Shown in pieces: positions 9,795-39,140 of a stretch of DNA of 64,000 nucleotides (position 1 is its first letter; the number at the start of each line of letters is the position of its first letter). The DNA comes from Pseudomonas sp. R5-89-07 (lineage in GTDB: Bacteria > Pseudomonadota > Gammaproteobacteria > Pseudomonadales > Pseudomonadaceae), in the NCBI RefSeq assembly GCF_003851685.1, contig NZ_CP027727.1, positions 5,933,146 to 5,997,145 of the forward strand, read 5' to 3'. The position numbers and the translations under genes were made by a program. The notes below the pieces were generated by a model. That model was not told where the DNA came from. It made no database searches and was given only the letters and a program-made list of their open reading frames with translations.

Positions 9795-9823
9795 AAAAGG
9801 GGCCGTTGAAAACAGCCCCTTTT
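9795..9823 (-). terminator. Original glmS transcription terminator, now separated from glmS by the transposon
   Basis: On the minus strand AAAAGGGGC pairs with GCCCCTTTT (9795-9803 with 9815-9823) and is followed by a T-run, a good intrinsic terminator. Joining this flank to the glmS-proximal flank across the transposon (CCCAAAAG on the glmS side, AAAAGGGGC here) recreates a normal glmS downstream region. The insertion therefore fell at the foot of the terminator stem, as Tn7 does in E. coli. Confidence 0.8.
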
Positions 9824-9960
9824 GATCCTACTGAATAAAGTCTGTCGGATCGAGCCCAGCAATTACGGGGGCTAGCCGATGGGTTTATCAGGAATAAAGT
9901 CTGTCGCAACACCATTTTTATGAGGTGGTGTCGTTAGACCTACTAAATAAAGTCTGTCGG
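9823..9960. repeat. Left transposon end with three spaced TnsB-type binding repeats
   Basis: The core AATAAAGTCTGTCG occurs at 9834-9848, 9893-9907 and 9945-9960, all in the same orientation, spaced 59 and about 52 bases apart. The outermost copy is preceded by TGATCCTAC, which puts the repeat about 10 bases inside the terminus. Three separated sites is the arrangement of the Tn7 left end. Binding by TnsB is inferred from this analogy. Confidence 0.88.
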
Positions 9961-10546
9961 AAGCATGCAAGCTATTGATTTCAGATAGTTTTTTATCTAA
10001 AACCGCAAATTCGCCGAGCGCAAGCACAATGGAGCTCCGACGATCGAGATTCCGTCGCGGCGTCGGATGTCCGATGGAAAAACCACTCCTTCCGAAAGTA
10101 ACGCACCTTTATAAAGCGCACAGCCAACACGGTCCAGGTGAGCACCTTTCAGGTCATATGAGAGGTACGCCAATGCTGGGTTAGGAACGGTCCAGTTATT
10201 TCCGCTGATGGGACAGTGCGATCATCTACTGGAGAGGAATCACATCGAATGTTGATCACCCTCAATTCTGTAATCGAACAGCAGTCATCTTAGCCCTTTG
10301 CTGCTCGCTGACCACAGACTGCTAATCTATTCGAGTATGGATTTGGGTTTAGAACTGAGCCCGCTCGTTGTCGCGGTCGGGTACCGTACCCCAATTTGGA
10401 GGTGCGTCAGCCTTGAGCTGGCAAGCGGATAAACTCGGCATAGACCTCAACTAGAGGACGGCGGATGCAAACCCGCCTCTTACTCAATCTGCTATTTGGG
10501 CATCAGCAAGGTGATTATCCAAGCCAAACCGCAAGAGGTAGCGCTT
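9961..10546. other. Region without a convincing gene, inside the left transposon end
   Basis: About 590 bases between the last left-end repeat and the operator-like palindromes of the first cargo gene. Open frames at 9975-10184 (+) and 10465-10647 (+) exist but show no recognisable family, no good ribosome site and no compositional support. I see no other structure here. Confidence 0.5.
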
Positions 10547-10604
10547 GCTGTCATTTTGCCGATATTATGCCGACACACCAGCAAAATGCCCTCAAAATGA
10601 CAGC
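10547..10604. promoter_or_regulatory. Nested inverted repeats upstream of the RHH-type regulator, candidate operator
   Basis: GCTGTCATTTTG (10547-10558) is perfectly inverted as CAAAATGACAGC (10593-10604). Within it ATTTTGC (10553-10559) is inverted as GCAAAAT (10581-10587). The outer arm ends 12 bases before the ATG of the regulator at 10616. Position and symmetry suggest an autoregulatory operator, though a transcript hairpin is also possible. Confidence 0.65.
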
Positions 10605-10615
10605 GAGTATCGTCC

Positions 10616-11512
10616 ATGGCCAGATTAAGCGTTCGCGACTTTCCTGATAACTTGCACCAGCTGCTGCTCCAGTCAGCTGCCAGGCATGAACGCTCGCTAG
10701 AGGGGGAAACCCGGTTTGGCCTCGCGCGCTACCTTGAATCTCTCAAAGCGGCCGAGCCTGAGGCGGCCTCCTTGTGTGAAATTTGGCAGCGCTCTACAGG
10801 CCAGCGCTTGCAAAAGCTATTTGCGCGCTTGCGCGAAGACAACGTTTTTTCCTGGGGCGAGCGCAGCGATTTACCTCACTTGGCCCTAGCCTTGGGGGAA
10901 CCGTCGCCGGCAACGCTGATGAACTGCATCGACGGTCGTGAAGCGCTGCCATTTGATCTGGCGAAACGTATCGCCGAGCGCTACGGGTGCAGTCTGGAGT
11001 GGCTTATCAACGGCTCTAGCTCTATGTTTCCATACCCAGAAATTGGCGGGGACTATCGCGAGTTTTTCGAGCCAGCTATCAGGGACACCGGTATCAATAT
11101 TAAGCTGGTCCGGCTCTGCACCCCTGAGGATGCCGAAGGTAATTTAAGCCGGCATGACGGTACCTTGCTGATGTTCAGATGCAAGGACGACAAACTAAGC
11201 ATTGCCGCGGGGTATAGCGGTCGCTTTTATCTAAATGGTCGTATGGGTGGTGGTGGCCATAGCTGCCTAGAAGGTTTCGTCAACTTTCTTAATGAGAATC
11301 AAAACTTGCAATTCAACGAATACAACTGTGAGGCGCCGATTGACGAATCTGCGATGTGGGACCACCACCCCAATTACTACCTTGATCTCAAACATTGCAG
11401 TCAGGCGTCTTGGCTATACCCACTGCGCGCTGGTAGATCGCCTTCCAGCATTGACTGGATGCAGCAGCACACTTTTATGACTCCAAAGCAAAGCGAGCAG
11501 CTAATTTCATAA
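10616..11512 (+). CDS. RHH N-terminus plus HTH-like middle: putative cargo regulator
   Basis: A 298-residue protein, first gene of the transposon cargo. Residues 1-42 (MARLSVRDFPDNLHQLLLQ and following) look like an Arc/FitA-type ribbon-helix-helix strand and helices. Residues 58-140 (LFARLREDNVFSW to GCSLEWLINGSSSMFP) resemble a Cro/CI-like helical domain in which YGCSLEWLINGSS is the usual end of such domains. The last ~150 residues are not recognised and contain a glycine-rich patch (GRMGGGGHSC). A short nested palindrome immediately upstream is a likely operator. It may regulate the neighbouring zinc-ribbon/HEPN gene 97 bases downstream. The RHH call is fairly clear; the rest is inference. 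Confidence 0.7.
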   Translation: MARLSVRDFPDNLHQLLLQSAARHERSLEGETRFGLARYLESLKAAEPEAASLCEIWQRSTGQRLQKLFARLREDNVFSWGERSDLPHLALALGEPSPATLMNCIDGREALPFDLAKRIAERYGCSLEWLINGSSSMFPYPEIGGDYREFFEPAIRDTGINIKLVRLCTPEDAEGNLSRHDGTLLMFRCKDDKLSIAAGYSGRFYLNGRMGGGGHSCLEGFVNFLNENQNLQFNEYNCEAPIDESAMWDHHPNYYLDLKHCSQASWLYPLRAGRSPSSIDWMQQHTFMTPKQSEQLIS

Positions 11513-11609
11513 GAAAGGCTCAGCTGCTGGGCATTGGCATGGCCCTTAACCCCCGGCTGAATGCCCCAGTTAGGAATGAGGCATGTCTTGGGAATAATAG
11601 GGAGCCAAG

Positions 11610-13103: not shown

Positions 13104-14534
13104 TTATGCTGGCAAGTGTCGAACTGTCCCGATGATGGTGAGAGATTTCGCTCCTCGGGTCATCGCGACGTACAAATCCTTCGCATCAAGCGAGTCGGCA
13201 TCAAGAATGACGGCGTGGTCATACTCAAGGCCTTTAACCAGCAACGTAGTACCAATCAGCTTGCGGTGGTTGATCGGTCGGCCCGAATGCCTCATCTCAC
13301 GCTGATAAAGAATGCCAGCCTCAACGAGCGTCGTGGCTTGACCATCAATATGAATCTTGAGCACGTTCAAGAAACGATAGAGTAAGTCACGGCGATAGGC
13401 TGATGTTTCGGGGTTGCTCTTCAACGTTTCGAAGAAGGCCTTAAGATGGCTGCTGGACGGGTCAGTCAGATAGTCATTTGCAGCTTGAAGGACCAAAGGG
13501 TATTTAGTGGTCCTGCGCAGCTTGGTTACTTCGCCTCGCCTAGTTCCGGCCGTCAACGCACTGGGTACACCAGTGAGGCATTTCATCGCAAATTTCACTA
13601 CAAGGAGAAACCCCGCCTGAACAGTCTTGACGGCAACAAGCTTTTTGATAAACGAATGCAGATCTTTACCTTCGATTTCCTCGATTGAGGAAAAACGTCC
13701 GGCCATGGTTTTCGCCAAGAGGTGAGTTTTATTCTTGGACTGGCTGTCCCCGCCGTGCAGAGCGATGACGCTCTCATTATTGTTCAGCATCCCACAAAGC
13801 GCCGTGTACTGTTTAGCGGCGAGGTACTCGGGCTGGGTGTAGGTACGAATCACGCTCGGTGGTAGCTGGGCCAGCAAATCAATCTTTTGGCCTAGCTCGA
13901 TCTTTCGCCTCACATTTTTGAGCCATTCGCCAAGTTCCGGACTCTTCGCCTTGACCCACCGCCAAGGGACCTCCAGCTGTCCCAAGCAATCAAATTTGGG
14001 GTAGACGCTGACTTCCCAATCAACGGGCTTGCCATCGTCAAAATCAAATATGGATTGGAGGGGGTCTCCCAACAGTCGGCTTGGAAGAAACTCTGCCAGG
14101 TTGCAGACGAGATCATGTTGTACGTCGGAGCAGTCCTGGTACTCGTCGACGTAGAGACCTATGTAGCTGGACGACACGGCCTCACGAATGAACCTCTTTC
14201 CGAGCAAATGGGAGCAGCACTCGTACAACTTATTCCACTGCTTGCTGGTCGGGTTTTCAATTTTCCAACCAGATGCTTTCGGGTACGCCAGACAGAGTCG
14301 AAGTGCCCAGCTAGCAATCGTATCGACCTGGAACTGGGAAGCACGAACGCCCAAGTCCGCCATTTTGGTTTTTATCGAATTCACGCCGGCAAAAGTGTGC
14401 GTCAGGATAAGCTGCCGGCCACCTGACGCTCGCACCGCCATTGCGATGAGATGAGTTTTTCCAAACCCCGCAGGCGCGATTACATAACCTTTGGAGGTAC
14501 AGTCGTTGAGCTTGATTGCGAGGTCTTCAGACAC
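13104..14534 (-). CDS. UvrD/Rep-like helicase, GajB-like component of a Gabija-type system
   Basis: A 476-residue superfamily 1 helicase. Walker A is APAGFGKTH (20-28), Walker B is DEYQD (130-134), and the C-terminal part has LVKGLEYDHAVI (motif V) and LYVAMTRGAKSL (motif VI). At 476 residues it is much shorter than housekeeping UvrD or Rep but close to GajB. Its start overlaps the end of the OLD-nuclease gene by 8 bases, so the two are cotranslated. In Gabija, GajB accompanies the GajA nuclease in anti-phage defence; the helicase could instead belong to an unnamed class 2 OLD/helicase pair, which is the same general arrangement. Confidence 0.85.
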   Translation of the reverse strand: MSEDLAIKLNDCTSKGYVIAPAGFGKTHLIAMAVRASGGRQLILTHTFAGVNSIKTKMADLGVRASQFQVDTIASWALRLCLAYPKASGWKIENPTSKQWNKLYECCSHLLGKRFIREAVSSSYIGLYVDEYQDCSDVQHDLVCNLAEFLPSRLLGDPLQSIFDFDDGKPVDWEVSVYPKFDCLGQLEVPWRWVKAKSPELGEWLKNVRRKIELGQKIDLLAQLPPSVIRTYTQPEYLAAKQYTALCGMLNNNESVIALHGGDSQSKNKTHLLAKTMAGRFSSIEEIEGKDLHSFIKKLVAVKTVQAGFLLVVKFAMKCLTGVPSALTAGTRRGEVTKLRRTTKYPLVLQAANDYLTDPSSSHLKAFFETLKSNPETSAYRRDLLYRFLNVLKIHIDGQATTLVEAGILYQREMRHSGRPINHRKLIGTTLLVKGLEYDHAVILDADSLDAKDLYVAMTRGAKSLTIIGTVRHLPA

Positions 14535-16233
14535 GCTTCGCCCACTCCCAAAGCCTTCCCAACTCTAAGGCGAGATTTGTTTTGCCGAATCCGGGATCGT
14601 TGAAAGCGGTACTCACCGCCTTGAACCACAGGTCGCCTCTAGTAGTATCCTTGAACCATCCCGCGCTCTTTGCTGCAGCACCAATTGCAGTCCGCAGCTT
14701 GGGGCTATCCCGCCACTCGCTGATGTCAGGGTCCAAAACGTCCTGATACTGCGATCGCACTTGATCGTATACCGGGTAGAAGAGTTCGACTTGGGCGAGC
14801 GTCAAGCTGGCAACTACGGAAGCCCAGGGCAGATCCACAAAAGCCCGCTCCTCAAGCGAAAGTTTGTCGTTCCAGACGTAGGTGGGAATTCCTATTGCAA
14901 CAAGCCCAGCAGCATCAGCGGCTGAGAACTGCTTCTCGGCATCGCCATCAGCTAGTGCCGACACGTCATAGCCAAGCTTTTTAAAGGCAATAGCCATGCC
15001 CTTCACTTTGCTGGCTCCCTTAGCGTCTAGCAACGCCACACCGTGATATGACAATGGATCTTGCCCATTTTCGAGTTGGTGATCGTCTAAGCCCCTTATG
15101 AAACCTACCTCGGTAGCGCCTTCACATACGACAACCTTTTTGGCCAAGAAAGCTTCAGCGCTAGAGCGAATCTTACCCTGAACCTCATGCTCTTCGAGGC
15201 CCTTCTCGGCAGCGGAGACGATCGTCACGACCCCGCCCTTGCTGTGGACGATATGAAGGTCCTGCACCGTGAGCTCGCGAAGCACCATGGGCGAATGGGT
15301 AGTTAGGAAATACTGCCCGCGTTTGTCCTCCCTGATGTGCTTGATGAGACGCGTAATGCGATGGGGCTCGAGGCCGAACTCCAACTCATCGAACAAGGTG
15401 ATATGGCCATCCTCCAGGCCCGCTTTCTGGATTCCACACTGAAGCATCCGGCGAGATCCCAGACCTAACTGGCGCAATGGGATTTCGCCGTCATGCAGGG
15501 AAAGACCGCCGACTTTCAGGTTGATGGACGCCAAGTCAAGATGGGCCTTATAGGCATCAAGTACAGGGACACCTAAGAGCTTCGCAATCTCTTGCGATTT
15601 GGTTGCTGCAGTGTCGAAGTTTGTCAGGGAGACAGCCCGGTCGACATCGAGCGAACTCCTGGCAGTCCTCGATGCATTGGCCAATAACTCGCTCAAGCTC
15701 TGCGCCGCAGTAAGCTTGGCAAGTGCAGTTCCGTTTGCCCAGGAAAGCTCTCGTTCGCTGAAAACGCCGATGAGGCCAACCCCGACCTTGTTTCTATCTG
15801 CCTGTTTAAAAGGCACCCCGTCAGGGTTGCGATCGCACACCACAGCCCATTTCGGCTCCAAGTCCTTCTCAACGGTTAGCCGGGCGGTCAATACGCTTTC
15901 CAGATGATCATCTGGCTCATCAAGCAGCTTTTGAGCTGCCGCATCCCAACCCCGGAGGTACAACCCATATTTATTAAGGGCAGAAAAGTCTGCGGCCAAA
16001 TGCCCGATCGTAATCTCGATGATGATGGGGTCAGCGATTTTGCACTGGTAAAAATCTGAGTCGCTGAGGGCCAGATTCCACTGGGGATGGAATGTGTAAC
16101 GGATGGCCTCCAAAATTGTGGACTTGGAGGAGTCACCTTTACCTATGAGACAAAAAATGTCAGCGGTTGGCACATTCCAATCAAGCGTTTTCACTCCGCG
16201 GAAGTTCTTGATCACGATCTTTCTGATTTTCAC
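14527..16233 (-). CDS. OLD-family ATPase/Toprim nuclease, GajA-like component of a Gabija-type system
   Basis: A 568-residue protein with an SMC/ABC-type ATPase followed by a Toprim nuclease. Walker A is GKGDSSKST (31-39), the signature loop is LGLGSRRM (256-263), Walker B is ITLFDELE (278-285) and the switch His is in TTHSP (311-315). The Toprim part has CEGATE with Glu371 and the acidic DGD at 429-431, the expected metal ligands. Length matches GajA (about 580). It is first in a two-gene unit with the overlapping helicase, the defining Gabija order. GajA homologues are sequence-specific DNA nicking enzymes held inactive by nucleotides and released during phage infection; that regulation is known for the family and not visible here. 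Confidence 0.87.
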   Translation of the reverse strand: MKIRKIVIKNFRGVKTLDWNVPTADIFCLIGKGDSSKSTILEAIRYTFHPQWNLALSDSDFYQCKIADPIIIEITIGHLAADFSALNKYGLYLRGWDAAAQKLLDEPDDHLESVLTARLTVEKDLEPKWAVVCDRNPDGVPFKQADRNKVGVGLIGVFSERELSWANGTALAKLTAAQSLSELLANASRTARSSLDVDRAVSLTNFDTAATKSQEIAKLLGVPVLDAYKAHLDLASINLKVGGLSLHDGEIPLRQLGLGSRRMLQCGIQKAGLEDGHITLFDELEFGLEPHRITRLIKHIREDKRGQYFLTTHSPMVLRELTVQDLHIVHSKGGVVTIVSAAEKGLEEHEVQGKIRSSAEAFLAKKVVVCEGATEVGFIRGLDDHQLENGQDPLSYHGVALLDAKGASKVKGMAIAFKKLGYDVSALADGDAEKQFSAADAAGLVAIGIPTYVWNDKLSLEERAFVDLPWASVVASLTLAQVELFYPVYDQVRSQYQDVLDPDISEWRDSPKLRTAIGAAAKSAGWFKDTTRGDLWFKAVSTAFNDPGFGKTNLALELGRLWEWAKRV

Positions 16234-16494: not shown

Positions 16495-18105
16495 CTAAGC
16501 AGGTGAAGACCTCTGTTCCACGCGGGCTCGCTTTCTTTCTCGTTCGGCTTTCCTTGCAGCTCGGTCCCTGCTCAACTCAACCTCTCTCATGGGATGGTTG
16601 ATGAAGTGCTGTTCGTAGGTACGGATCAGACCAGCATCGTGACTTGCCATAACCTGCTCGAAAACGTAATCCGCGTTCCTGGCGACGATTTCGTACTTAT
16701 CGGTTTCAAGGTTTCTATTTGAGATCAGTAACAGCGCCTCGGGAGTGAAATTTCCGCTGCTCCAGATTTCAAACCGCTGCGGCAGGTATCCCCATTCGGA
16801 ATGATGCTTAGCCACTTCGCGGAGTACGGGAATGCGCTTGTCGAGCCATTTGGCGACTTCTGCGTCATCTACATTGCCCAAGGGATGTACTCCCTTGCAC
16901 TCGATGAACACCACGTCTTGATACCTCCTGACTACCAAGACGTCAATTTCGGCCTGCCGGCCAAGGCTGTCCTTAACCTTCCTGTTCACTTCAGGATCGC
17001 CGCCCGGGAACGTGGACTTGGCAATGTGAGCAACTGCAAACTCAAACAAACTTCCTCGCAAAGTAGACCCGGCGCCCTCTATCCGCGAAAGCACGTTGAA
17101 AACCTGATCCAGTGACTCAGGGCTGTCCAAGAGCTTGGCCGTGTTTTCGAGTAATGAGCACAGGCTCTTCAGAGCTCTGGCTACCTCCAGGCCGAAAAGG
17201 CTTTCGGTAGTGGCAGGAATGATGCCCTCTGCTTTTAAGAGCGAGAACGCTTCGGTGGAAAACTCTTCAGCTACAAAAACCTGGAGACAGCGGCTTACCT
17301 TTGAAAGGCTGCGCAGCGTCACGCATTTTTTGACGAATGCACTCAGTTCCTCCGCAGTTACCCGTCCATTCAAAGCAATGTCGCAGACAAAAAATCCGCC
17401 CTTAACGCCGGCAGCCTCAGAATACGAACGCATCGGAAACAGAAATGATGGACCCGCCATATCCCACTGAAACGTACCTACCTGCGGCATCTTCTCTAGC
17501 CCATCGTCCTCACGGGTTTTGACGGCCTCGTAGCTCACCAGCCCCAATTTTCGTGCCCAGTCCTTTACCGCGATCAGCGCCAGTCGCTCTGCAATGTTTC
17601 GAGCCTTGAGTTTGGCCAGCGTGATCCCGTCCTGGAGGGGCATTTCTTGATCGCATCTCACGACGCATGTATCCCCTCCCGGCAGTGCTACCTCCTTGAC
17701 CAGACTCGCGCTGATCAACCGTTCAAGCAGACTTTCGGCCGAGACGTGTTTCAACTGAGCTACCGGCGCTCCACAGGCGATAAGGAAATGAGACCGCAGC
17801 ATGAAGTTAGAGCGCATTTTCAAGGCTTGGAGGGCTGAGTAGTAGGCGCTATTCGTCTGCTGAAGAGCATCAATCAGATTGGAAAAAAATTTCCGCGAGC
17901 CGTAATCGGATCGTAGATACACAAAGCGGGCACGGTGAGGAAAGATTAGGTGGCTCAGCTTTCTCATATCTTCACAGCCCCGCTCGACCCGCTTGCGAGC
18001 GGCCGTAGGAGCCAGGTTGTATTGAGATTCCAGGATCTTCGCGAGCTCACTGCTCAGCATCGGGCCGTTCTTAGCCAGAATTTTCGCTACCGCATCCTTC
18101 GCCAT
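16495..18105 (-). CDS. Protein with PD-(D/E)XK-like motif and predicted winged-helix N-terminus
   Basis: A 536-residue protein I cannot name. Residues 1-60 (MAKDAVAKILAKNGPMLSSEL and following) look like a winged helix-turn-helix. A long central region of about 300 residues has no known motif. Residues 385-405 hold a restriction-endonuclease-like pattern: AEID (Glu386, Asp388), a hydrophobic strand, then FIECKG (Glu402, Lys404), which is the D-x(n)-ExK arrangement of PD-(D/E)XK nucleases. The C terminus is a highly charged basic tail (KAERERKRARVEQ). It reads in the same direction as the Gabija-like pair, 261 bases upstream. Its place in a defence-rich cargo suggests a DNA-targeting effector, alone or as a partner. 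Confidence 0.72.
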   Translation of the reverse strand: MAKDAVAKILAKNGPMLSSELAKILESQYNLAPTAARKRVERGCEDMRKLSHLIFPHRARFVYLRSDYGSRKFFSNLIDALQQTNSAYYSALQALKMRSNFMLRSHFLIACGAPVAQLKHVSAESLLERLISASLVKEVALPGGDTCVVRCDQEMPLQDGITLAKLKARNIAERLALIAVKDWARKLGLVSYEAVKTREDDGLEKMPQVGTFQWDMAGPSFLFPMRSYSEAAGVKGGFFVCDIALNGRVTAEELSAFVKKCVTLRSLSKVSRCLQVFVAEEFSTEAFSLLKAEGIIPATTESLFGLEVARALKSLCSLLENTAKLLDSPESLDQVFNVLSRIEGAGSTLRGSLFEFAVAHIAKSTFPGGDPEVNRKVKDSLGRQAEIDVLVVRRYQDVVFIECKGVHPLGNVDDAEVAKWLDKRIPVLREVAKHHSEWGYLPQRFEIWSSGNFTPEALLLISNRNLETDKYEIVARNADYVFEQVMASHDAGLIRTYEQHFINHPMREVELSRDRAARKAERERKRARVEQRSSPA

Positions 18106-22917: not shown

Positions 22918-23900
22918 TCGGGCAGTCCGGCAAAAAGTGAGCCATAGACTTGCAGAACATCCGGCGCATCCGTCACCAATGGATGATCGATAAGAATCGG
23001 GTCAAACAAACTGACCTGTAGCTTACGCTCCCATATGTCTTTGTAGATCTTCGTCAGAAACAGATCACGCCGGCCCCACCGCTGTCCGTAGGTTAAGGCA
23101 ACAGACGCGACTGGCCTCCCATGAGCGACACAGTCACCGACGTCGTGCGAGAAGTCCTCGAGAAGATTCGATTCGAGGCTGATTTCGCGATCATGGTAGC
23201 CGTATAGAAGATCCAAGTTGGCTACCAAGACTGGGTCCAACAGGTCCCTAGAGACCCTCACAGTCCTCATACCTGCACTATGGTAGTACGCCTCTTCCAA
23301 GGCATGTCGCAAGCGAGCTTTCTCGCGGTCTTCTTTCTGTTTCGCCAGACTCTTCAAGCTTCCCCGCGCAACCTCATCAAAATCCATCGCACTCAACTTC
23401 ACTGTCCAGTTCACAACGTAGGGGACTGAGCCTTGCGGCTGGATATAGAGAAGTAGATCGCCCAGGTACGGATGGGGGACCCTCTGGCGTTCACCATCCC
23501 CGTAGGTCACGACTACAGTCGCGTGTTTAAACCCGATTTCCTCCGCTACTAATGATGTTCCCTTCACCGGCAGAAGTTCCAAACCTGCAGCAAAAGGGTG
23601 CCCTTGAAGTGGATGAACATGTGGAATCGGGCTGAGCATCTTCTGCTCGTGCAACTCAAATACGTCAGGATTATAAAGAGCCAGTTGGGCGAAGATTCTT
23701 TCCGGTGTAGAAAGAAGATGCAGTGCTCGGCCCAGCTTCCTGCTATTAAGTCGGCAAATACGAGAGCCCTTGGGCGCTTCACCAGGGACTGCATAAATTC
23801 TAGGTAAGTAGATATCTCCCCACTTGAAGCGGCCTTGTCGACCTATAATGCGAAATAACGATTTTTTAAGATCCACTAATTTTATCCATCGTCCATTCAA
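22914..23900 (-). CDS. tnsA: TnsA-like endonuclease
   Basis: A 328-residue endonuclease that cuts the 5' ends during cut-and-paste transposition. The start is a TTG at 23900 (MNGRWIKLVD); no good ATG precedes it in frame. Likely active-site residues by position are Glu67 (STPERIF, followed by NPDVFELHEQ), Asp148 (YLGDLL) and Lys168 in NWTVK. In E. coli TnsA the residue two before the lysine is Gln; here it is Thr166, which is unusual but common variation is possible. It is first in the operon with tnsB and tnsC, and its 5' side faces a divergent tnsD-like gene. Confidence 0.85.
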   Translation of the reverse strand: MNGRWIKLVDLKKSLFRIIGRQGRFKWGDIYLPRIYAVPGEAPKGSRICRLNSRKLGRALHLLSTPERIFAQLALYNPDVFELHEQKMLSPIPHVHPLQGHPFAAGLELLPVKGTSLVAEEIGFKHATVVVTYGDGERQRVPHPYLGDLLLYIQPQGSVPYVVNWTVKLSAMDFDEVARGSLKSLAKQKEDREKARLRHALEEAYYHSAGMRTVRVSRDLLDPVLVANLDLLYGYHDREISLESNLLEDFSHDVGDCVAHGRPVASVALTYGQRWGRRDLFLTKIYKDIWERKLQVSLFDPILIDHPLVTDAPDVLQVYGSLFAGLPE

Positions 23901-29216: not shown

Positions 29217-30641
29217 TCAGTGCTTGACCATCACGTGGCGAATCACGGTGTAATCCTCCAATCCGTACATCGACATGTCTTTGCCGTAGCCGGATTGCTT
29301 TACACCACCGTGTGGCATCTCGCTCATCAGCATGAAATGGGTATTGATCCAAGTGCAGCCGTACTGCAGGCGCGCCGCAAGACGGTGAGCTCGCCCTACG
29401 TCAGAGGTCCACACCGATGATGCCAGGCCATAATCAGAGTCGTTTGCCCAAGACAGTGCCTGCGCCTCGTCTTCAAATTCGGTCACGGAAACCACCGGGC
29501 CGAAAATCTCCCGGCGCACCACTTCGTCGTCTTGTCGCGCGCCGGCAAGTACCGTGGGTTCGAAGAAGTAACCGGGACCTTCCACGCGTTTCCCGCCCGT
29601 CACGACTTCTATGTGTGGCAGTAACCGTGCTCGATCCACGAAGCCGACAACACGGTCCAAGTGCTGTTGGGTGATCAGAGGCCCCAGCTCAGTCTCAGGA
29701 TCATCCTGAAGACCAAACTTGATACTGGATACGGCGATGCCGAGCTTTTCAACGAGGCGAGCGTAAATGCCTTTTTGCGCATAGATCCGGCAGGCGGCGG
29801 TGCAATCCTGGCCGGCGTTATAGAAACCGAAACTACGTATGCCCTCTACAGCCGCATCGATGTCTGCGTCGTCGAAAATGATGACGGGGGCTTTGCCTCC
29901 CAATTCCATATGCATACGCTTAACGGTGTCAGCGGTGCCGGCGATGATATGACTGCCGGTGGCCACTGACCCCGTCAGTGAGACCATCCGCACTTTCTCG
30001 TGGGTAGTGAGCGGCTTGCCTACATTGGGCCCTCGTCCGAACACAACATTGACCACGCCAGCAGGGAAAACCGTGACCATTAACGAGGCTAACTTAAGCG
30101 CCGTCAGCGGTGTCTGTTCGGAAGGTTTGAGGACAACGGTATTGCCGGCCGCCAAGGCGGGAGCCAGCTTCCACGCGGCCATCATCAGTGGATAGTTCCA
30201 AGGCGCGATCGAGGCGACGACACCCACGGGATCGCGCCGAATCATCGAAGTATGGCCTGGCAAATACTCGCCCGCCGCCGAGCCTTGCAAACACCGACTC
30301 GCACCCGCGAAGAAACGAAACACATCGGACACGCCAGGCAGTTCGTCGCCCAAGACGGCCGCGTAAGGCTTGCCACAATTATTCGATTCCAGCCGGGCCA
30401 GTTCTACGGCATGGCTATCGATGAGGTCAGCCAGTTTGAGCAACAACAGCGAGCGATCCTTTGGCGTGGTCTGGGACCAGCTTTCGAAGGCGGCGTCAGC
30501 GGCTTGCACTGCGCAATCAACCTGCGCGGGCGTAGCCTCAGCAATGTCCACTAGTGCGGTCCCCAGAGAAGGGTTCATTACCGCGAGTCGCTCGCCTTCG
30601 CCTGCGACCAATTCGCCGTTGATGAGCATTTTAATGTGCAT
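29217..30641 (-). CDS. Aldehyde dehydrogenase, gamma-aminobutyraldehyde dehydrogenase-like (PatD type)
   Basis: A 474-residue NAD(P)-dependent aldehyde dehydrogenase. Conserved residues are Asn149 (APWNYP), Lys172 ([10 protein letters not shown]), Glu246 (MELGGK) and catalytic Cys280 (GQDCTAACR). The sequence [19 protein letters not shown] and the GQDCTAACR loop resemble aminobutyraldehyde dehydrogenases of putrescine degradation (PatD/YdcW). The start [10 protein letters not shown] at 30641 is preferred over a longer frame to 30797. It follows the permease by about 165 bases and probably oxidises an aminoaldehyde produced from an imported amine or amide. Confidence 0.9.
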
Positions 30642-30806
30642 AGGCGTCTCCAATGAGTGCAGGCGCCAGATGCCTGCACTCAGAAAGAATTTAGATTTAA
30701 CGGACAATAAGTTGCTGACTAAGTCAGCCGTCCAGTTGGGGAGTCGCGACAGGTTTGCGTATCGGCCACATGGTTTTTCATGCAGCCTTAAAGTCACAGA
30801 GGGGCT

Positions 30807-32147
30807 CTATACGGGTATGTCCAACGAGTTCTTGCCTTTCAGAATCCACGCGACGATGCCACCGAGTACGAGCCATGCGACACCGACGAGTTGGGCGTTC
30901 GAGTTCGCGCTGAACAGTGCGTAGCAGAGGACGGCCGCACCCAGTACAGGGGAAACGAGATGTCTGAAGAAAGAGCGATCAGTCTTACCCCTGAAGAAAG
31001 CGATGACAGAAGCATGCAACATCACATAGGCACACAATGCGCCGAACGTGACCATCGTTACGATGGTTTCAATCTGGTCTTTGCCGACAATGGCAATCAC
31101 CAGCGAGAGCGCAGCGACCAGGTATAACGCGGTCGTTGGTGCTTCATTTTTATTAAGTTTGGCGAGCACACGAGGCAGCTTTTTATCGCGTGCCATGCAG
31201 TAGATGACTTTTGTCGTGGTGGCCTGGGAGATAAGTGCATTAGCCAGCAAAGCTATCAGTGCATTCGTCAACGTGATGACCGGCAGGAACCACGTCCCCA
31301 CCACTTGGGTGCTGACCGTGTAAAAGGCAACATCAACGGCGCCGTCCTGATATTTCGACCCCAGGGGAACGAACACAGACGCCAGGTAGACTTGCGCAAC
31401 GAACAGCACGGTCACGATCACCAGCAACAACATCGTCGCCCGCGATACGGTTTTACCGCCCCCCTCGGCCTCCTCATTCAGCGTCGAAACAGCATCAAAA
31501 CCGATAAAGCTCAGAGCGGCGATTGGTACGGCGCCAAACACGGCGGACATACTGAATTGCGACGGGTTATAGAAAGGCGCTAACAGTTGCTCCTTGGAAA
31601 CCGTTCCTCCGGCGATAAGGCCAACCGCAAACACGACGAAAATCGAGAGGACAACCAGCTGGATGACCAGCAGCACCTTTCCCACATTCACATTAACGGT
31701 GATACCGAACAGATTAACGATCATGGGCACAGCGACGAAAATCCCTAACCAAACCACCTTGTCGATGCCGGGAAACAAAGGTTGCAAGGCCGCTGCACCT
31801 AGAACCGCCAGCAACGCGGGAAGCAACAGATAGTCCAGCAAGATGGCCCATCCCGCCATAAAGCCGAATGTGGCATTGGTGCCCTTTGTCACATAGGAAT
31901 AGACCGATCCCGAAAGAGGAATTCGTTTCGCCATTTCGCTGTAGCTGATCGCACTGAACACCATCGCGATGGCGGCCAGCGTATAGGTCAGCGCGGTCAG
32001 TCCATTGGACGTGTTATGAATCGCTCCAAAGACAGAGACAGGAGCAATCGGAACGAAGTAAAGCAACCCGTAGACAAGGACGTCCGTCAGCGAAAGTTTC
32101 TTGCTGAGTTGACCATTATCACTGGGTACGACCAAGGTATCGCTCAT
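30807..32147 (-). CDS. APC-superfamily amino acid/amine permease
   Basis: A 446-residue inner-membrane permease with about 12 helices. The start MSDTLVVPSDNG at 32147 has AAGGGG seven bases upstream; the longer frame to 32261 lacks membrane sequence. APC features include VLVYGLLYFVPIAPVSVFG in helix 1 and SFIGFDAVSTLNEEAEGGGKTVSRA in helix 6. PuuP-like amine and amino acid importers look like this. In context it would import the substrate or product of the dimethylformamidase-like enzyme and the aldehyde dehydrogenase. Confidence 0.87.
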   Translation of the reverse strand: MSDTLVVPSDNGQLSKKLSLTDVLVYGLLYFVPIAPVSVFGAIHNTSNGLTALTYTLAAIAMVFSAISYSEMAKRIPLSGSVYSYVTKGTNATFGFMAGWAILLDYLLLPALLAVLGAAALQPLFPGIDKVVWLGIFVAVPMIVNLFGITVNVNVGKVLLVIQLVVLSIFVVFAVGLIAGGTVSKEQLLAPFYNPSQFSMSAVFGAVPIAALSFIGFDAVSTLNEEAEGGGKTVSRATMLLLVIVTVLFVAQVYLASVFVPLGSKYQDGAVDVAFYTVSTQVVGTWFLPVITLTNALIALLANALISQATTTKVIYCMARDKKLPRVLAKLNKNEAPTTALYLVAALSLVIAIVGKDQIETIVTMVTFGALCAYVMLHASVIAFFRGKTDRSFFRHLVSPVLGAAVLCYALFSANSNAQLVGVAWLVLGGIVAWILKGKNSLDIPV

Positions 32148-32540
32148 TTTTGTTGCCCCTTGACGATTGGCCCGGATTTTCACCCGGACATTATTTAGGT
32201 ACGGTTGCCGCGTGTCGCCAGCATTTGCTGTGGAACCGCGTACCGCTTTTGTTATTTGCACATCGGGACTGGAAAGGACCTATTCACTCAAACACCAAGA
32301 TGGGTCTTTTGACGTTCGATGAATTCAGTTTAGGAGCCCCTCTTACTGTCGACTATCGAACCAGCGAACCGCGCTTTTCGTGTGAGTGCACGGCGCCTTT
32401 ATTGCCATGAACTTGTCGCGCCCAAAGAGCAGCCGGGCGTGGCTGCCCCTTGGGTCCGATCAATGTATGCACTGCAGCATGGTCCGCTCCCCGAGGCCAA
32501 GCATCGGCCGGGCTCCGCACTCATGCATCTGAATGGACGG
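32148..32540. other. Gap between permease and amidase-like genes
   Basis: About 390 bases. Small open frames occur on both strands but none looks like a gene. It is long enough to hold a separate promoter for the permease-dehydrogenase part; no confident promoter or hairpin was found. Confidence 0.45.
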
Positions 32541-34901
32541 TCAATTGCAATCGATGATGACGTCCAGCGCTTCAGGGTGCAGGAACCGCTTGAGCACATT
32601 GCCGGTGAGTCGCGCGACATTGTTGTCGTAACGGTTGTGGGAAAGTGAACCGGTGTAGGCAATTGATCCCACTGAGAACACGCCGCCCCCTCCTGGCAAT
32701 GGACACAGAACGATGTCCGCGCGAACGCGAGACTGCTCGGTCCCGCCAATGCCAGGGATTGATTCGTAGACGTCCTCGGCGGCGAGAAGATAGGCATCCG
32801 ACAATGGCCCGGAAGTCGCCAGGACAAGCGCACCCGGTGGGGCCCCTAATGACGGATCGTACCGGTCGATCTCCGCGCCGGCGGCACCACCGCCCATGAT
32901 TCCAAAGTCGCCAATGCGCTCGTCACTGCCAATCCCTTCAAACGCAAATGCGGCGAGTGGGTCGTAGCTGTCGGTGAGGCGTTCGTAATACGTGCAGCGG
33001 TCGAAGCCTTGCGCGGCGAACCCCACGCCTAGCAGTCGCTGCGGCGCCTTACCCTTGTTGCGCCATAGACCGGCCATTTCACCGGAGGTCTGGTGGCGGC
33101 GATCGCCAAATGGCGACTCGTGGGGGCGTGTACCCGCATCTGACCTGCGTAACTCCATGACATGCCGCTCTTCCGGATCAAATGAAACGGTTGCGAAAAA
33201 ACCGTTTCCGCCCAAGTACATCAAGCGTCCGCCGTTCCCGGTGAAAGCCTCGATCGCGTTGAGTTCGTTGCGTGTCACATATTCTGGATGACTGCCCGTG
33301 ATTAGAACCTTGTAGTCCTTGAGCAGGTCGACGCCTTCGCGATCGAGGTCTTCATCCGTCAGCGCGTCGAATTCACAACCGATTGTGTCGAGCCAATGAA
33401 CGATGCAGAGATCAGCAGGAAGCCCCCATACGCCCTCTGCCTGGAACCAGGCGCGGTGTTTGGGGTTGAGCGTCAGGATGGGGCGCCGAGTGCTGCCGAA
33501 GACGACGCCAGAGCCATCGTTATGGATTTCATAACAGGAACGACCGAATTCAGGATGGTCTTGAAGCGTCAGATCTTGACGATCAATGATCGGTGTCCGA
33601 CTGACGATGATTTCCGCGCCATTGGCTTCAAAGGCTATTCGGTCGTTGGCGTACGCCAGATAAGTCGCCGTAGAGAAAAGCACCGCCACTTCGCGTTTCT
33701 GACGTCCCGGCCTGACGAAAAACGGGATGTATTGTTCAACGCCTGCACTGCTCAGTTTCGCGGCGTATACACCACTCGCGAGATCGTCTGGGACCTGAAT
33801 CTTGAACGCCGTTGGCCACTGGGCGTCGGTGATGTCATCGTCGTGAAAATGGATCGCATCAAACTCGTCAGGTGCCCGCCGAAAGTCGTCGCTCAACCCC
33901 TTAAACCTATGGCCCGCCACTCCCCGTGTCGGCGCGTTGAAGCAGCGTCCATGCAAACCGTTTCCGGACACGTCTACAACATCGCTGAGCAACAGGCCAT
34001 CGTCACGAAGGCTCTTGCCAAAGTGCCAGGCGGCCAGCTCGGAAACAGCCGAATCGCCGAGAGAGGGACGCAGAATGCGGACTCCACCGATTTTTCCGTT
34101 GTAGGCTGCATTCGCCAGCCATCGACCGTCTTGCTGAAAGGCCAGCGCCCCGATCCTGAAGGGGGGTTGGCTTTCAGTCAGTCTCGTGCCGAACCTGAAG
34201 GGGGCTTGGCTTTCAGTCAGTCTCGCGCCGAACGGGACAGTACGTGATTCTGCGCGCAAGGCACTGGCACTCGCTGAGAGACGGTTCATGATGTTGTCGA
34301 TTGGTGTCTGCTCCAGGCAGACCGTCCCGGCATCCGATTTGACACTGACTATGACGCGATACCACTGGTGTGCAATAAGTGGCGTTGCCAATGAAACTTT
34401 CTTTGTCTCACCATCTGCCACCCATATAAACGTTGGCCGCCCTTCCTCCAGTACAAGGGCGTAGCCAGAACAACTTGCCACGGACCAGTTTCCCAAAACG
34501 GCCTGTAGACTCGAATCACTCTCAAATGAGTTCTGCGTTACGTGGTAGGCCCCGAAGTTGCCCGAGCGTGTGCCTTGCGGCAGTGTCGGATAGACATGGG
34601 CTTCAATAACCAAACCGTTAGGGGATCGCAGAAGTCCTTGCTTGTCAGTGATTTCCACATAAGAGCCCGGCTGGCACACATGCTGGATACCCTCGTAGCT
34701 TCCTTCGAACGACGACTCAACAGGCGTCTCAAGGAAACCGGGGCCCGACTCCCCCGTAAACCCGTGTCGAAGCTTCACAAGCGAGGCGTCATATCGCGCG
34801 ACCCCTTCGCAACTTACCTTGAAAGAAAGACTTTCACCCGGCGACACAGAGAATCCGTCGCTATAGCCGAAAATTTGCTGACTGACCTGGTTCATTCTCA
34901 T
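32541..34901 (-). CDS. N,N-dimethylformamidase-like large subunit
   Basis: A 786-residue protein close in size to the 762-residue beta subunit of bacterial dimethylformamidase (hydrolyses DMF to dimethylamine and formate). After an N-terminal beta-rich part, residues ~115-205 form a LamG-like domain (PNGLVIEAHVYPTLP). The C-terminal half carries VAVLFSTATYLAYANDR, LLKDYKVLITGSHPEYVTRNEL and GRLMYLGGNGFFATVSF. Known enzymes use a Tyr/Tyr/Glu-bound iron; Tyr residues in TATYLAYAN and HPEY and Glu in SGEMAGLWR are candidates. It starts two bases after the small-subunit stop. A 39-bp tandem duplication lies inside. The true substrate could be another amide. Confidence 0.82.
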   Translation of the reverse strand: MRMNQVSQQIFGYSDGFSVSPGESLSFKVSCEGVARYDASLVKLRHGFTGESGPGFLETPVESSFEGSYEGIQHVCQPGSYVEITDKQGLLRSPNGLVIEAHVYPTLPQGTRSGNFGAYHVTQNSFESDSSLQAVLGNWSVASCSGYALVLEEGRPTFIWVADGETKKVSLATPLIAHQWYRVIVSVKSDAGTVCLEQTPIDNIMNRLSASASALRAESRTVPFGARLTESQAPFRFGTRLTESQPPFRIGALAFQQDGRWLANAAYNGKIGGVRILRPSLGDSAVSELAAWHFGKSLRDDGLLLSDVVDVSGNGLHGRCFNAPTRGVAGHRFKGLSDDFRRAPDEFDAIHFHDDDITDAQWPTAFKIQVPDDLASGVYAAKLSSAGVEQYIPFFVRPGRQKREVAVLFSTATYLAYANDRIAFEANGAEIIVSRTPIIDRQDLTLQDHPEFGRSCYEIHNDGSGVVFGSTRRPILTLNPKHRAWFQAEGVWGLPADLCIVHWLDTIGCEFDALTDEDLDREGVDLLKDYKVLITGSHPEYVTRNELNAIEAFTGNGGRLMYLGGNGFFATVSFDPEERHVMELRRSDAGTRPHESPFGDRRHQTSGEMAGLWRNKGKAPQRLLGVGFAAQGFDRCTYYERLTDSYDPLAAFAFEGIGSDERIGDFGIMGGGAAGAEIDRYDPSLGAPPGALVLATSGPLSDAYLLAAEDVYESIPGIGGTEQSRVRADIVLCPLPGGGGVFSVGSIAYTGSLSHNRYDNNVARLTGNVLKRFLHPEALDVIIDCN
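34155..34232. repeat. 39-bp tandem duplication within the amidase large-subunit gene
   Basis: Two adjacent 39-base copies (34155-34193 and 34194-34232) differ at two positions. They are in frame and duplicate 13 residues, giving FGARLTESQAPFR next to FGTRLTESQPPFR around residues 225-250. The frame is kept, so the protein gains a short insertion between its LamG-like domain and the rest. Confidence 0.88.
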
Positions 34902-34902
34902 T

Positions 34903-35292
34903 TCATCCGTTATGCGACTGAGAATCCGTTTCGCGCGACTCGGCAGCGAAAAGGGCTCGGCATCGAAGCGAAAAAACGTGACGCAATGCGTCGTCGTAAG
35001 TCAGGAAAATGCCTGGACTTCGAACGAAGTTGCCTGGCTCTCCAATCACAATGTTCCCGACGCCCCATGGCCCGTCGATACCCAGCGAAATGACAATCGC
35101 CTTGCCGGCTATAGACGCCCCGCCTAGCCCACGCACGACCCTTCGAGTCTTGTCATCGTGTGGCCCGAGCGGAGACCGTTCGTAGGCGCCGATCACGCCA
35201 GAGTCGCAGTCGTCACGCAGGCGCTCAAAAAACCGAGCCTGGAACAAAGCGGCCAATTCAGCTTCGCGATCTGAGGAGGTACGCATGGTCAT
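34903..35292 (-). CDS. N,N-dimethylformamidase-like small subunit
   Basis: A 129-residue protein matching the size of the dimethylformamidase alpha subunit (about 132). It begins MTMRTSSDREAELAALF (a second Met at 35286 is also possible) and contains ARFFERLRDDCDSGVIGAYER and GIFLTYDDALRHVF. The stop is one base before the ATG of the large subunit, so the pair would be made in balanced amounts. No other family is suggested by the sequence. It is the promoter-proximal gene of the catabolic block, divergent from the AraC regulator. Confidence 0.78.
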   Translation of the reverse strand: MTMRTSSDREAELAALFQARFFERLRDDCDSGVIGAYERSPLGPHDDKTRRVVRGLGGASIAGKAIVISLGIDGPWGVGNIVIGEPGNFVRSPGIFLTYDDALRHVFSLRCRALFAAESRETDSQSHNG

Positions 35293-35747
35293 TCCCTCAG
35301 TGCGGTAGTTATTGTTGTGTTCATACTTTTCTCTTGCTTGTCAGTCGATTGCGCAGATATCCAAAAATGCGCCTGGCCGCGTTGCGGAGCGCTGGTCCGG
35401 AGGAGATACGCTGACCCCCCTGTACCGGTAGCGATATCGTCCGATGGACCGCGCCCCGCGATCTATCGCATGAGAGAACCAAGATTTTCGTCAGCGTGCA
35501 CGGTGCGCAGAGTGGGTGCACGAGTCTGGTCTTTGCTCGCAACCGGCTCACCTACAGAGCAACGGCTCATGGCATACCTTTGCTTCCGCACCATTGGTCC
35601 GCTTTAACTGGACTTATGCATCCACCGGTTATTATCGAAATATGACACGGCGCTTCCGATGGCTGACTAGGCTGACTAGGCTTGCCTGGAAGTCATGGCA
35701 TAGGGCTTGCTTGAGCTTCTAAGGCAGTGATTTTTTCAGGAGGGCGT
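35293..35747. promoter_or_regulatory. Divergent control region of the amidase operon and araC-type gene
   Basis: About 455 bases. Two head-to-tail copies of GCTGACTAG occur at 35662-35670 and 35671-35679, 70-85 bases before the regulator start. Direct repeats are usual targets of AraC-type activators, so this is a candidate binding site; the evidence is only position and repetition. Confidence 0.45.
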
Positions 35748-36716
35748 GTGGATTCGTTACATTTGATAACCCGGTTCTCGACGGGCGAGGTTCATCCACA
35801 AAGACGTCTTGCTGCCTGGCAGGATTTCATGAGCGATGTCTACTACCCGATAGACGTGGCGGCCTACAACCCGGCATCGTTCTGCGGAGTCATTGAATCC
35901 ACCCAGATCGGCGCGGTCGGAATTACTCGCTTTGCCGCTGATGCGCAACGGGCTGTGCGCCGCAAAGTACATGCCGGACGCGATGATTCGGATTTTTTCG
36001 CGCTAGTCATGCCGACCATGCAAACTGAGCAGTTCACTCACCTGGGTCGATTTGGAGACGTTGCGCCAGGCCAGGTCTCTGTCTTCAATTCCGCAGAAAC
36101 CTATCAGCTGGATATCCCCAACGGCACGAGAAACGTCACAGTAAAAATACCGGCCGACCAATTCAGGGCGATGTGTCCGAAAATTGATGCGCGTTGTGGC
36201 CGCGTCGACGTCGCCAATTCGCGTTTCGTGCCACTGCTAACGCAATTCGCGTTGCAAGCATTGGAAAACGCCTCCTGCCTTTCCCCCGAGCATGTCAGAA
36301 GCTTGGAGAGAGGATTGCTGGAATTGGCTTTCTTGATGATGGATGTACCGGAGACCGATGCAGCGGGGGATTCACGAACGGTCATTGATCACTTCTTTCA
36401 CCGTGTCATGGCGTATATCGCGGCAAACTTTCACGACCCGGATCTTGCACCTGAGCGAGCAGCTCAAGCTCACCGCGTTTCCATCCGCTATGTCCACAAG
36501 GTTTTCCAAGCTCACGATACGACGTTCGGGCGAGAACTTCGTCTTGCTCGGCTCAGGCACGCTCAAAAGCTTCTGCGCGAGAATGCGCTGCACAAGGCTC
36601 GGCCCACGACCATTGCGGAAGTGGCCTACAACTGTGGTTTTTCCAGCCAGGCGCTTTTTTCCGTCCGATTCAAGGAAGCTTTTGGGTACTCGCCTCGAGA
36701 CGAAAAAAGCCATTAG
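35748..36716 (+). CDS. AraC-family transcriptional regulator
   Basis: A 322-residue regulator. GTG 35748 (MDSLHLITRF) is chosen because AGGAGG lies just upstream; an in-frame GTG at 35727 is less supported. The N-terminal part (HPQRRLAAWQDFMSDVYYPI) is of the AraC-binding-like type found in FeaR and similar activators of amine and aromatic amine genes. The C-terminal ~110 residues hold the two HTH motifs (ERAAQAHRVSIRYVHKVFQ and TIAEVAYNCGFSSQALFSVRFKEAFGYSPRD). It is divergent from the amidase-like operon and is its likely activator. Confidence 0.9.
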   Translation: MDSLHLITRFSTGEVHPQRRLAAWQDFMSDVYYPIDVAAYNPASFCGVIESTQIGAVGITRFAADAQRAVRRKVHAGRDDSDFFALVMPTMQTEQFTHLGRFGDVAPGQVSVFNSAETYQLDIPNGTRNVTVKIPADQFRAMCPKIDARCGRVDVANSRFVPLLTQFALQALENASCLSPEHVRSLERGLLELAFLMMDVPETDAAGDSRTVIDHFFHRVMAYIAANFHDPDLAPERAAQAHRVSIRYVHKVFQAHDTTFGRELRLARLRHAQKLLRENALHKARPTTIAEVAYNCGFSSQALFSVRFKEAFGYSPRDEKSH

Positions 36717-36829
36717 TTCCACGCTAGCTCACATCAAATGGATGGCACTCATCGTAAAGTGTCTTTTTTGGCGCCTTCTGCGCCATGCCCTCTATGTTTC
36801 GTCGCATTAGGATGAGGCGATGAACTGCG

Positions 36830-37210
36830 TCAGCGCATGTGCGCGGCTTCCAGCGCCAAGCTCATGTTCATCCCCACGAGCCCGGCTTTTGCCGCCGCAT
36901 AGGCTGCCTCACCCAAGTTGCTGACGCGGGTGCCGGTCGTAGAGCTGATATAGACGATGCGTCCATAACGACGATTCTGCATCCCCGGCAACACTGCTCG
37001 GGTCAGCAAAAATGCAGTGGTCAGATTACGGGCAATAGGGTTGTTCCAGACATCGACGCTCGTATTGGCTACGTCGGAGAACACCTCGGCTTCACCCTTA
37101 ATCGCCATACCCGCGTTGTTCACGAGCACATCGATTTGCCCCCATAGCGATCCAGACCATTTCACCAGTTCGACGCCTTTACCAGTATCGTTGAAGGTGG
37201 GACGGACTAT
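36830..37210 (-). pseudogene. Fragment of a short-chain dehydrogenase/reductase gene
   Basis: The frame contains VLVNNAGMAIKGEA (NNAG motif) and GRIVYISSTTGTRV followed by YAAAK, the catalytic Tyr-x3-Lys of SDR enzymes. The N-terminal nucleotide-binding TGxxxGxG part is absent because a stop lies at 37211-37213. The C terminus also ends early at LALEAAHMR, where normal SDRs continue for about 80 residues. Only the middle ~125 residues remain, so this is a decayed remnant, probably left by rearrangement at the edge of the catabolic block. Confidence 0.8.
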
Positions 37211-37221
37211 CTATAATGGGT

Positions 37222-37253: not shown

Positions 37254-37428
37254 TACAGAAGCCTTCATTCACTTTCCATGTAAAGCCTCGCATGGCCTAA
37301 CCGATGATCATCACAATGCAGTTCATTCATGTCGCAGTGATCTGGGGATTCAACATTGGCGGCAAGTAGATAAATGTTCTTTCCTATTATGTCTAGAATT
37401 CCTGACGTAAAATGCTTTTGGCCAGTTA

Positions 37429-37815: not shown

Positions 37816-37900
37816 TGAAAAAGCGTGCAGTCCATCTCTGACTTTTTGATGATAGTGAGTCGTGCATCTTGCCAAAATCAACGTGGCTGATCTCGTAAAC

Positions 37901-39004
37901 CTATTGCCGCCTGTAGATACCCGGCGGTGCATTCTTAACGCGTTGAGGTTGAGGTTGAGGACCTTTTTTCTTTGGTCGCTCAAAATTACAGCAGGGATAA
38001 TACACCGGCCGCCAATCCCACATCCCCCAAATTTCTTTAGCGGGGAAAGGGCAACTCCAATATCCCACACCAAATTCATAGTTCTCTTCAACGAAATGTG
38101 TTGATTCCTGGTGGCCTGCGATATAAGTCGACCACAGAGACTCGATCGGCCGAATTTCGTCCCCGTAAGCTTTCACATCAGAGACGAAGTCAGCAAAACT
38201 TTCATAGGTTTCGACTATCGCTTTAATTATAAAATCAGTGGGTTCATCAAGAGGGAGCCTGTTTTTAGACCTAGATTTTTTGACAACTCCAAGCCGCCTT
38301 TCAATATTATCTCCAATATTCCTGTCGGATAAAAAATTCCAGATTTTTTGCTCAAATACTCCGTCTTGATGGATTTTTTCATTTAAGACCGCGAGAACCG
38401 CCTCCTCCGAAAGGTGATGGGTGAATGACAGAATCTCCTGAAAAATCTGCGCTTTCTTCAACTCAAATGGATCTGTGTTCAGCGTCACAGGGCTATCTTT
38501 TAGATGTCGTCCCTCACAGGTCTTCCACATCACCCCCAGACTATGACCTCCATGGGAAAACTGTTTGTCACAAGCCGGGCAGCGTTTGACTAGCTCTACA
38601 TTGTGCTCCGCACAGACTTTAAGCTCACAACAGTGAGCACGCCGCCAGAAAGAAAATCCTAAGCGTTCAATATCTTCTGCAACACAAACCGGACAAAAAC
38701 CTGAAGGTTTTCTAATTGACTCATAGCAACGTGAATAGCTTATATATTCGTTCCTTGAGTAAGAGACATCTTGAGTATTTTTAAAAACTGCCGTGAAAGG
38801 ATAGTTAGTATGCGTGTGCAGAATTTTGTTCAAGCCGTAACAGCCAGACCATCCCAGCAATTCGGCAAGTGTCAAAATATCTGCCCGTGAGGGACTATTT
38901 GGAAACGTCCGAAATACGTCCTCGGAAGAACGTTTTCCTTTAATAAAAAGAGTCCGCTCCACAAAGGAACGCACAGTCTCCTCTGGCTGAATCGCTAGGA
39001 TCAT
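37901..39004 (-). CDS. Second, short TniQ-family protein at the right transposon end
   Basis: A 367-residue TniQ-like protein. The zinc motif is CPVC (Cys104, Cys107), a histidine/cysteine segment (WRRAHCCELKVCAEH, with Cys131 and His134) and CPAC (Cys142, Cys145). The N-terminal ILAIQPEETVRSFVERTL block and LAELLGW are typical of TniQ. The C terminus is short and charged. The gene is AT-richer than the surrounding DNA. It reads in the glmS direction and its start is 159 bases from the glmS stop, with the glmS terminator now moved to the other end of the element. Tn7-like elements with two TniQ proteins can use them for different target sites. Confidence 0.85.
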   Translation of the reverse strand: MILAIQPEETVRSFVERTLFIKGKRSSEDVFRTFPNSPSRADILTLAELLGWSGCYGLNKILHTHTNYPFTAVFKNTQDVSYSRNEYISYSRCYESIRKPSGFCPVCVAEDIERLGFSFWRRAHCCELKVCAEHNVELVKRCPACDKQFSHGGHSLGVMWKTCEGRHLKDSPVTLNTDPFELKKAQIFQEILSFTHHLSEEAVLAVLNEKIHQDGVFEQKIWNFLSDRNIGDNIERRLGVVKKSRSKNRLPLDEPTDFIIKAIVETYESFADFVSDVKAYGDEIRPIESLWSTYIAGHQESTHFVEENYEFGVGYWSCPFPAKEIWGMWDWRPVYYPCCNFERPKKKGPQPQPQRVKNAPPGIYRRQ

Positions 39005-39058
39005 TTTGGGCTTTCAAACGTTGAGCTTCGCCCAGAGTAGGGAGGAGCGGAGGAAAGC

Positions 39059-39099
39059 GTCGCTAGCTACCGAACCCGCGGGGCACAGGCGCTAGCGAC
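39059..39099. repeat. Inverted repeat overlapping the innermost right-end site
   Basis: GTCGCTAGC (39059-39067) is inverted as GCTAGCGAC (39091-39099). The second arm overlaps the first bases of the inner TnsB-type repeat, so it might help arrange the right-end complex or regulate the tniQ promoter. Confidence 0.55.
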
Positions 39100-39140
39100 A
39101 GACTTTATTTAGTTCCGACAGACTTTATTTCGTAGGATCA
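39095..39140. repeat. Right transposon end with two close-packed TnsB-type repeats
   Basis: CGACAGACTTTATTT is present at 39096-39110 and 39116-39130, 20 bases apart, followed by the terminal GTAGGATCA. The terminal sequence is the inverse of the left end TGATCCTAC. Close packing at the glmS-proximal end and wide spacing at the other matches Tn7 right and left ends. Confidence 0.9.

Follow-up and report, generated by a model that had tools for sequence, protein, structure and literature searches.

An apparently intact Tn7-like transposon behind glmS in Pseudomonas, from a family whose target duplications read as 4 bp

The final 64 kb of the single 6.0-Mb contig of Pseudomonas sp. R5-89-07 (the whole stretch analysed, hereafter the window) carry what appears to be an intact transposon of a divergent TnsABCD, i.e., Tn7-like, lineage, inserted at attTn7 and apparently joined to its target with a 4-bp stagger. 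We assign this reading a probability of roughly 0.88. In the parts of the literature covered, a 5-bp duplication is described as characteristic of Tn7 and all of its relatives, CRISPR-associated transposons included. Since the family studied here shows 4 bp instead, the element is filed as a variant of the Tn7-like group: it would be a TnsABCD transposon by homology, and presumably works as one. No report of a 4-bp duplication in a Tn7-like element was found in the literature searched, which consisted mostly of papers available without subscription, and such mentions of 4 bp as were met were unrelated.

Ends and target duplication

The element, its ends and its insertion site are as follows.

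9823 to 39140, no strand: whole Tn7-like element, tip to tip, 29,318 bp (basis: empty site in two relatives and a tip position common to 17 elements)
9819 to 9822, no strand: left copy of the target duplication, CTTT, 4 bp
39141 to 39144, no strand: right copy of the target duplication, CTTT, 4 bp
9823 to 9959, plus strand: left end, with tip TGATCCTAC and three putative TnsB sites (starts 9834, 9893 and 9946; spacing 59 and 53)
39095 to 39140, minus strand: right end, glmS-proximal, with two tandem putative TnsB sites spaced by 20 bp (39096 and 39116) and tip CGTAGGATCA
39163 to 40995, minus strand: glmS of the host, the target gene; stop codon 22 bp from the right tip

The 14-mer AATAAAGTCTGTCG is present exactly at the three left sites on the plus strand and at the two right sites on the minus strand. 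No other exact copy exists in the 6.0-Mb genome, in which the reversed control pattern is absent (0 copies), and 50 mononucleotide shuffles of the window contained none. The first-pass annotation had proposed a Tn7-like element with both ends at attTn7 and with asymmetric ends, three sites on the left and two tight ones on the right; the five sites, the TG...CA tips, the tns genes and glmS at 22 bp bear this out. Its longer, 15-bp repeat ending in G holds for three of the five sites, the other two ending in C. The element is flanked by CCCCTTTT and CTTTTGGG, and the empty site that had been predicted exists in two relatives (G120 and G209), where the left flank is joined directly to glmS as CCCCTTTTGGG. 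Taken together, the Tn7-like element of the window, located 22 bp behind glmS, appears to be complete. As a separate observation, TAGGATCATTTTGGG (38996-39010, around the start of the second tniQ gene) resembles the right junction TAGGATCACTTTTGG (39133-39147), possibly by chance.

The length of the duplication was read across 28 loaded elements, i.e., those of 27 of the 28 genomes of the genus with a TnsB match (G097, a fragment, was left out) and that of G433. To locate the ends, a 16-bp matrix was derived from the sites of right ends, and each tip was placed 10 bp beyond the outermost site in every element, without tuning. At these fixed tips, an exact 4-bp repeat was found in all 17 elements with both ends. 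A 5-bp match was obtained in 7/17 when the left tip was moved by one base and in 6/17 when the right tip was moved, with approximately 4/17 expected by chance if one base in four matches. Nine further elements, read by eye under the same tip rule, all gave 4 bp as well: gggg in G143, tctc in plasmid p1 of P. koreensis P19E3, aggg in G788, acat in G352, gttg in G790, ttgt in G201, cagc in G789, ccgt in G792 and aagt in G793. The total is 26/26. G788 also has one stray left-type site; other end clusters were not found by pattern in G352, G790 and G201, and one contig of G789 bears additional sites. Of eight genomes scanned together for such elements, seven gave a duplication and G791 gave no site, and the second plasmid copy (CIP-10) stands outside the count with an unresolved left end. 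An element in Allopusillimonas also reads 4 bp (GTAC) and is kept outside the count because its ends lie on two contigs and their pairing is not forced. Both tips are of the TG...CA type in 15/17 elements, the right tip of G078 and the left tip of G002 being TA.

Empty sites point the same way. When exactly 4 bp are removed from G240, its flanks join to the empty sites L039 and L032 gap-free near the junction, and G000 likewise joins gap-free to L019; in the comparison with G240, L034, L047, L031, L026 and L019 align with gaps near the junction. A pattern search of 398 genomes gave no empty site for G031/G157. Across the element family the duplication appears to be 4 bp, the only reading that fits. 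Because only 4 bp fits throughout, the left boundary, which the first-pass annotation had placed at 9823 with an uncertainty of one base in an element ending at 39140, is fixed at 9823, and the duplication is CTTT; the 5-bp CTTTT proposed earlier was off by one base, the extra T being the tip of the element.

A second Tn7-like family of Pseudomonas, found through a copy beside the window-family element in G170, has end sites AATAAAGGTTGTCACA and served as a control. A scan identical to that of the main family gave 5 bp in 6/6 elements with a usable end pair (G180, G066, G067, G113, G176 and G170), all six behind glmS. Left out of this count were G003 (ends found, duplication not seen), G072 (no motif sites) and another element in G059, the far end of which was not located. 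Other Tn7-like relatives tried as controls (G032, G005, G030 and contig C30 of G009) gave no end repeats by quick scan and were dropped. The control family resembles the window family in its site sequence, in the 20-bp spacing by glmS, in its tnsABCD genes and in a TnsB without a match to the rve model, only Mu-transpos_C being found, below the cut-off. It differs in its 5-bp duplication, in a tip located 11 bp rather than 10 bp from the outer site, and in that its TnsA, TnsC and TnsD all reach the Pfam models TnsA, TniB and TnsD. The flanks of the G003 control-family element (G003:C1, near 1405870 and 1428290), which has no visible target duplication, look mutually reverse-complementary.

Transposition proteins and alternative readings

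Five genes for transposition were assigned in the window.

22914 to 23900, minus strand: tnsA-like endonuclease, 328 amino acids (profile, fold, invariant E67, D148 and K168)
20884 to 22917, minus strand: tnsB-like DDE transposase, 677 amino acids (profile, fold, invariant D307, D394 and E437)
19539 to 20891, minus strand: tnsC-like AAA ATPase, 450 amino acids (Pfam AAA_22, E 1.5e-4, below cut-off; position after tnsB kept in relatives)
24467 to 26236, plus strand: tnsD, 589 amino acids, with TniQ and TnsD domains (Pfam TnsD 6e-34, TniQ 2.4e-11)
37901 to 39004, minus strand: second tniQ (product TniQ2), 367 amino acids, adjoining the right end; proposed attTn7 selector (Pfam TniQ 4.9e-9; right-end position in relatives)

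The tnsA, tnsB and tnsC genes are consecutive, running from 23900 down to 19539, and tnsD is divergent from them. No TnsA, rve or Mu-transposase model of the Pfam version used matched the window TnsA or TnsB even at E 10, most weak matches being dropped by the HMMER filters; TnsA has a weak match to an NCBIfam TnsA-like model below cut-off (E 0.0018). Many TnsB relatives are listed with the Pfam domain PF27135.1. A family profile from an alignment of 30 TnsA sequences matched the solved Tn7 TnsA with E 7.7e-8, and one from 57 TnsB sequences matched the solved Tn7 TnsB with E 7.9e-11. The predicted TnsA fold (predicted local distance difference test score, pLDDT, 91.7) matched 1t0f in Foldseek with E 1.3e-10, and that of TnsB matched 7pik with E 9e-22. 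By family profiles and predicted folds, the two proteins appear to be homologues of TnsA and TnsB of Tn7. E67, D148 and K168 of TnsA and D307, D394 and E437 of TnsB are invariant in the respective alignments; from the biochemistry of Tn7 and their alignment positions, these are candidate catalytic residues. Pfam scans of 19 open reading frames of the element, without a search dedicated to TnsE, gave no TnsE match. These proteins support the distinct lineage that had been argued earlier from the terminal bases, TGATCC here and TGTGGG in Tn7; the conclusion stands, and the argument from the tips is weak by itself because tips vary within the family.

Several points weigh against the reading as a whole. 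The fifth base at the window's own site matches by chance, so that this site cannot separate 4 bp from 5 bp. The ends are split between two contigs in at least G352, G201, G789, G790 and G792, and the second end was resolved in 20 of the 28 loaded elements but not in the other eight (G293, G213, G106, G418, G301, G433, G006 and G009). Two control candidates, G003 and G072, gave no usable result. The TnsB model has only a moderate pLDDT (75.4), and sequence supports the assignment of TnsC weakly, its AAA domain being below cut-off; the gene order fits. A rival reading is an ordinary Tn7-like element with the standard duplication CTTTT, its left tip, GATCC, having lost one base: CTTTT flanks both window ends, and the empty site is compatible with either length. 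This is highly improbable given that the shifted-tip 5-bp matches are found in only 7 or 6 of the 17 elements, every one of which shows 4 bp. That the element is an inactive remnant or a genomic island without mobility is a less remote reading, yet an improbable one. Its G+C content differs from that of the host, but all five transposition genes are open, both ends are intact, and copies with ~90% identical TnsB are found in other genomes of the genus between other flanking genes and with only partly shared cargo.

For the preferred reading, i.e., an intact transposon with a 4-bp stagger, a mechanism can be proposed that builds on what is read directly from the DNA: the ends, the tips, the family-wide duplication, the empty site, the gene content and the conserved residues. 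A TniQ-type selector would recognise glmS and recruit TnsC. At the tips 9823 and 39140, the 5' ends would be cut by TnsA and the 3' ends by TnsB, which would then link the two 3' ends to the target at positions separated by 4 bp, with the right end towards glmS; gap repair would leave the repeat CTTT. The element would move by cut-and-paste, and may be active at present.

Selection of the glmS site

TniQ2 is probably the protein that recognises glmS, rather than TnsD, a conclusion less certain than the others. It is encoded at the right end directly beside glmS in 17 of the 28 loaded elements, with 22-26 bp between the right tip and the glmS stop codon; G352 and G201 also have both at the right end, and in G788 and G792 TniQ2 is located at glmS. 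In G059, G170 and G009, TniQ2 is present and end-like repeats of another Tn7-like element adjoin the right end, a second such element sitting between the window-family element and glmS in G170; in G793, TniQ2 lies beside other repeats. The element of Pseudomonas helleri (G313:C152, L198) is reversed at attTn7, with its left end 23 bp from glmS, and its TniQ2 is divergent (26%), while its TnsD is 78% identical to that of the window. G106 runs off its contig, and targeting was not resolved for G301 and G433.

The competing possibility is that TnsD, with its Pfam TnsD domain, selects glmS and that the short TniQ2 acts on a different target or as an accessory factor. Its odds are clearly below even, and considerable nonetheless. 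Tn7 itself offers the precedent, as its TnsD binds the end of glmS according to the parts of the literature covered, and in the distant Allopusillimonas copy at glmS, a TnsD-like gene is placed near the right end and TniQ2 is without a match. Moreover, the rule that TniQ2 means glmS has exceptions: G790 and G789 carry TniQ2 with glmS not seen within the 1.5 kb read, and both plasmid copies carry TniQ2 matches, that of P. koreensis being split between two frames. Against TnsD as the selector stands the position of TniQ2, which is found near the right end in every element in which the two were located, including those with an inverted tnsABC-tnsD block. Also, the two elements with both ends and no glmS, in 102 kb (G235) and 82 kb (G408), differ at TniQ2. 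Near the right end of G235 there is no more than a TniQ-like frame of 277 codons, much diverged (~83148-83978 of the joined stretch, on the strand opposite to the usual TniQ2), with a weak match over 45 residues (E 7e-5), whereas the TnsD match of this element is retained. No TniQ2 was found by the right end of G408, in which the TnsD match is broken up, so that this element says little about the selector.

Relatives, known systems and cargo

At an E-value of 1e-30, TnsB relatives occur in 28 of 398 genomes of the genus and, at 1e-10, in 2 of 369 genomes of the class, the source genome being included in both counts. Named genomes yielded 37 loci, of which 36 belong to Pseudomonas and the remaining one to Allopusillimonas. 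Copies with a TnsB identity of 46-47% were also met on two Pseudomonas plasmids; a DNA search for the left end in plasmids found nothing. With somewhat less than an even chance, these elements may form a mostly pseudomonad branch of the Tn7 superfamily, reaching into the Burkholderiales, with a 4-bp-stagger TnsAB and a split in targeting, the right-end TniQ leading to glmS and TnsD to other sites such as plasmids.

Like Tn7, the window element has homologues of TnsA, TnsB and TnsD with a TnsC-like gene, sits just behind glmS with the right end proximal, and has asymmetric multi-site ends with TG...CA tips. Unlike Tn7, its family duplicates 4 bp rather than 5 bp, it has a second TniQ by the right end, and its tnsD is divergent from tnsABC. 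Dual tniQ/tnsD transposons are known from 1,048 tandem loci (Faure et al., 2023; PMC10293859). As in those dual-selector elements, two TniQ-family selectors are combined, but in the window the second tniQ is separate from tnsD and adjoins the right end. The passages covered of that paper name neither the window family nor a 4-bp duplication. Comparison with a natural 4-bp TnsABC lineage offers a way to find which part of TnsB determines the stagger, and elements of this kind will be misplaced or overlooked by searches that insist on 5-bp repeats. The family would also add to the systems for integration at attTn7, one in which a second selector may operate.

The cargo of the window element comprises the following.

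10616 to 11512, plus strand: protein of 298 amino acids with a ribbon-helix-helix N-terminus (Pfam FitA-like_RHH 5.4e-8)
13104 to 14534, minus strand: Gabija GajB helicase (PADLOC E 1.2e-162)
14527 to 16233, minus strand: Gabija GajA OLD-type nuclease (PADLOC E 2.5e-201)
16495 to 18105, minus strand: protein of 536 amino acids with a weak nuclease-like C-terminus (PADLOC CARF_PDDEXK 1.3e-4; Pfam NERD 0.018, below cut-off)
26938 to 29064, minus strand: methyl-accepting chemotaxis protein (Pfam)
29217 to 36716, no strand: amide-catabolism-like cluster (Pfam Aldedh, AA_permease, DMFA2_C 4.7e-86 and AraC domains)

Gabija is already known as cargo of 338 Tn7-like transposons (Benler et al., 2021; PMC8649781). 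The cluster includes an aldehyde dehydrogenase, an amino-acid permease, a dimethylformamidase-beta-like protein (32541-34901), an open reading frame of 129 amino acids without a Pfam match, and an AraC regulator (35727-36716, plus strand); its domains suggest a pathway resembling amide catabolism. A short-chain dehydrogenase fragment at 36830-37165 is apparently truncated cargo.

Stacked Tn7-like elements were seen at L129 and L128 (G170), L084 (G059), L060 (G009) and L249 (G793), where the window-family right end is adjoined by repeats of the second family (AATAAAGGTTGTCACA) or, in G009 and G793, of a third (ATAGTTTGACACA), as if a later element had re-inserted at attTn7. In Pseudomonas nitroreducens TX1 (L209, reverse complement, ~5408-5541 and ~8429-8590), left- and right-type sites face each other ~118 bp apart and a right-type site abuts a left end, an arrangement possibly reflecting miniature or nested derivatives of the family.

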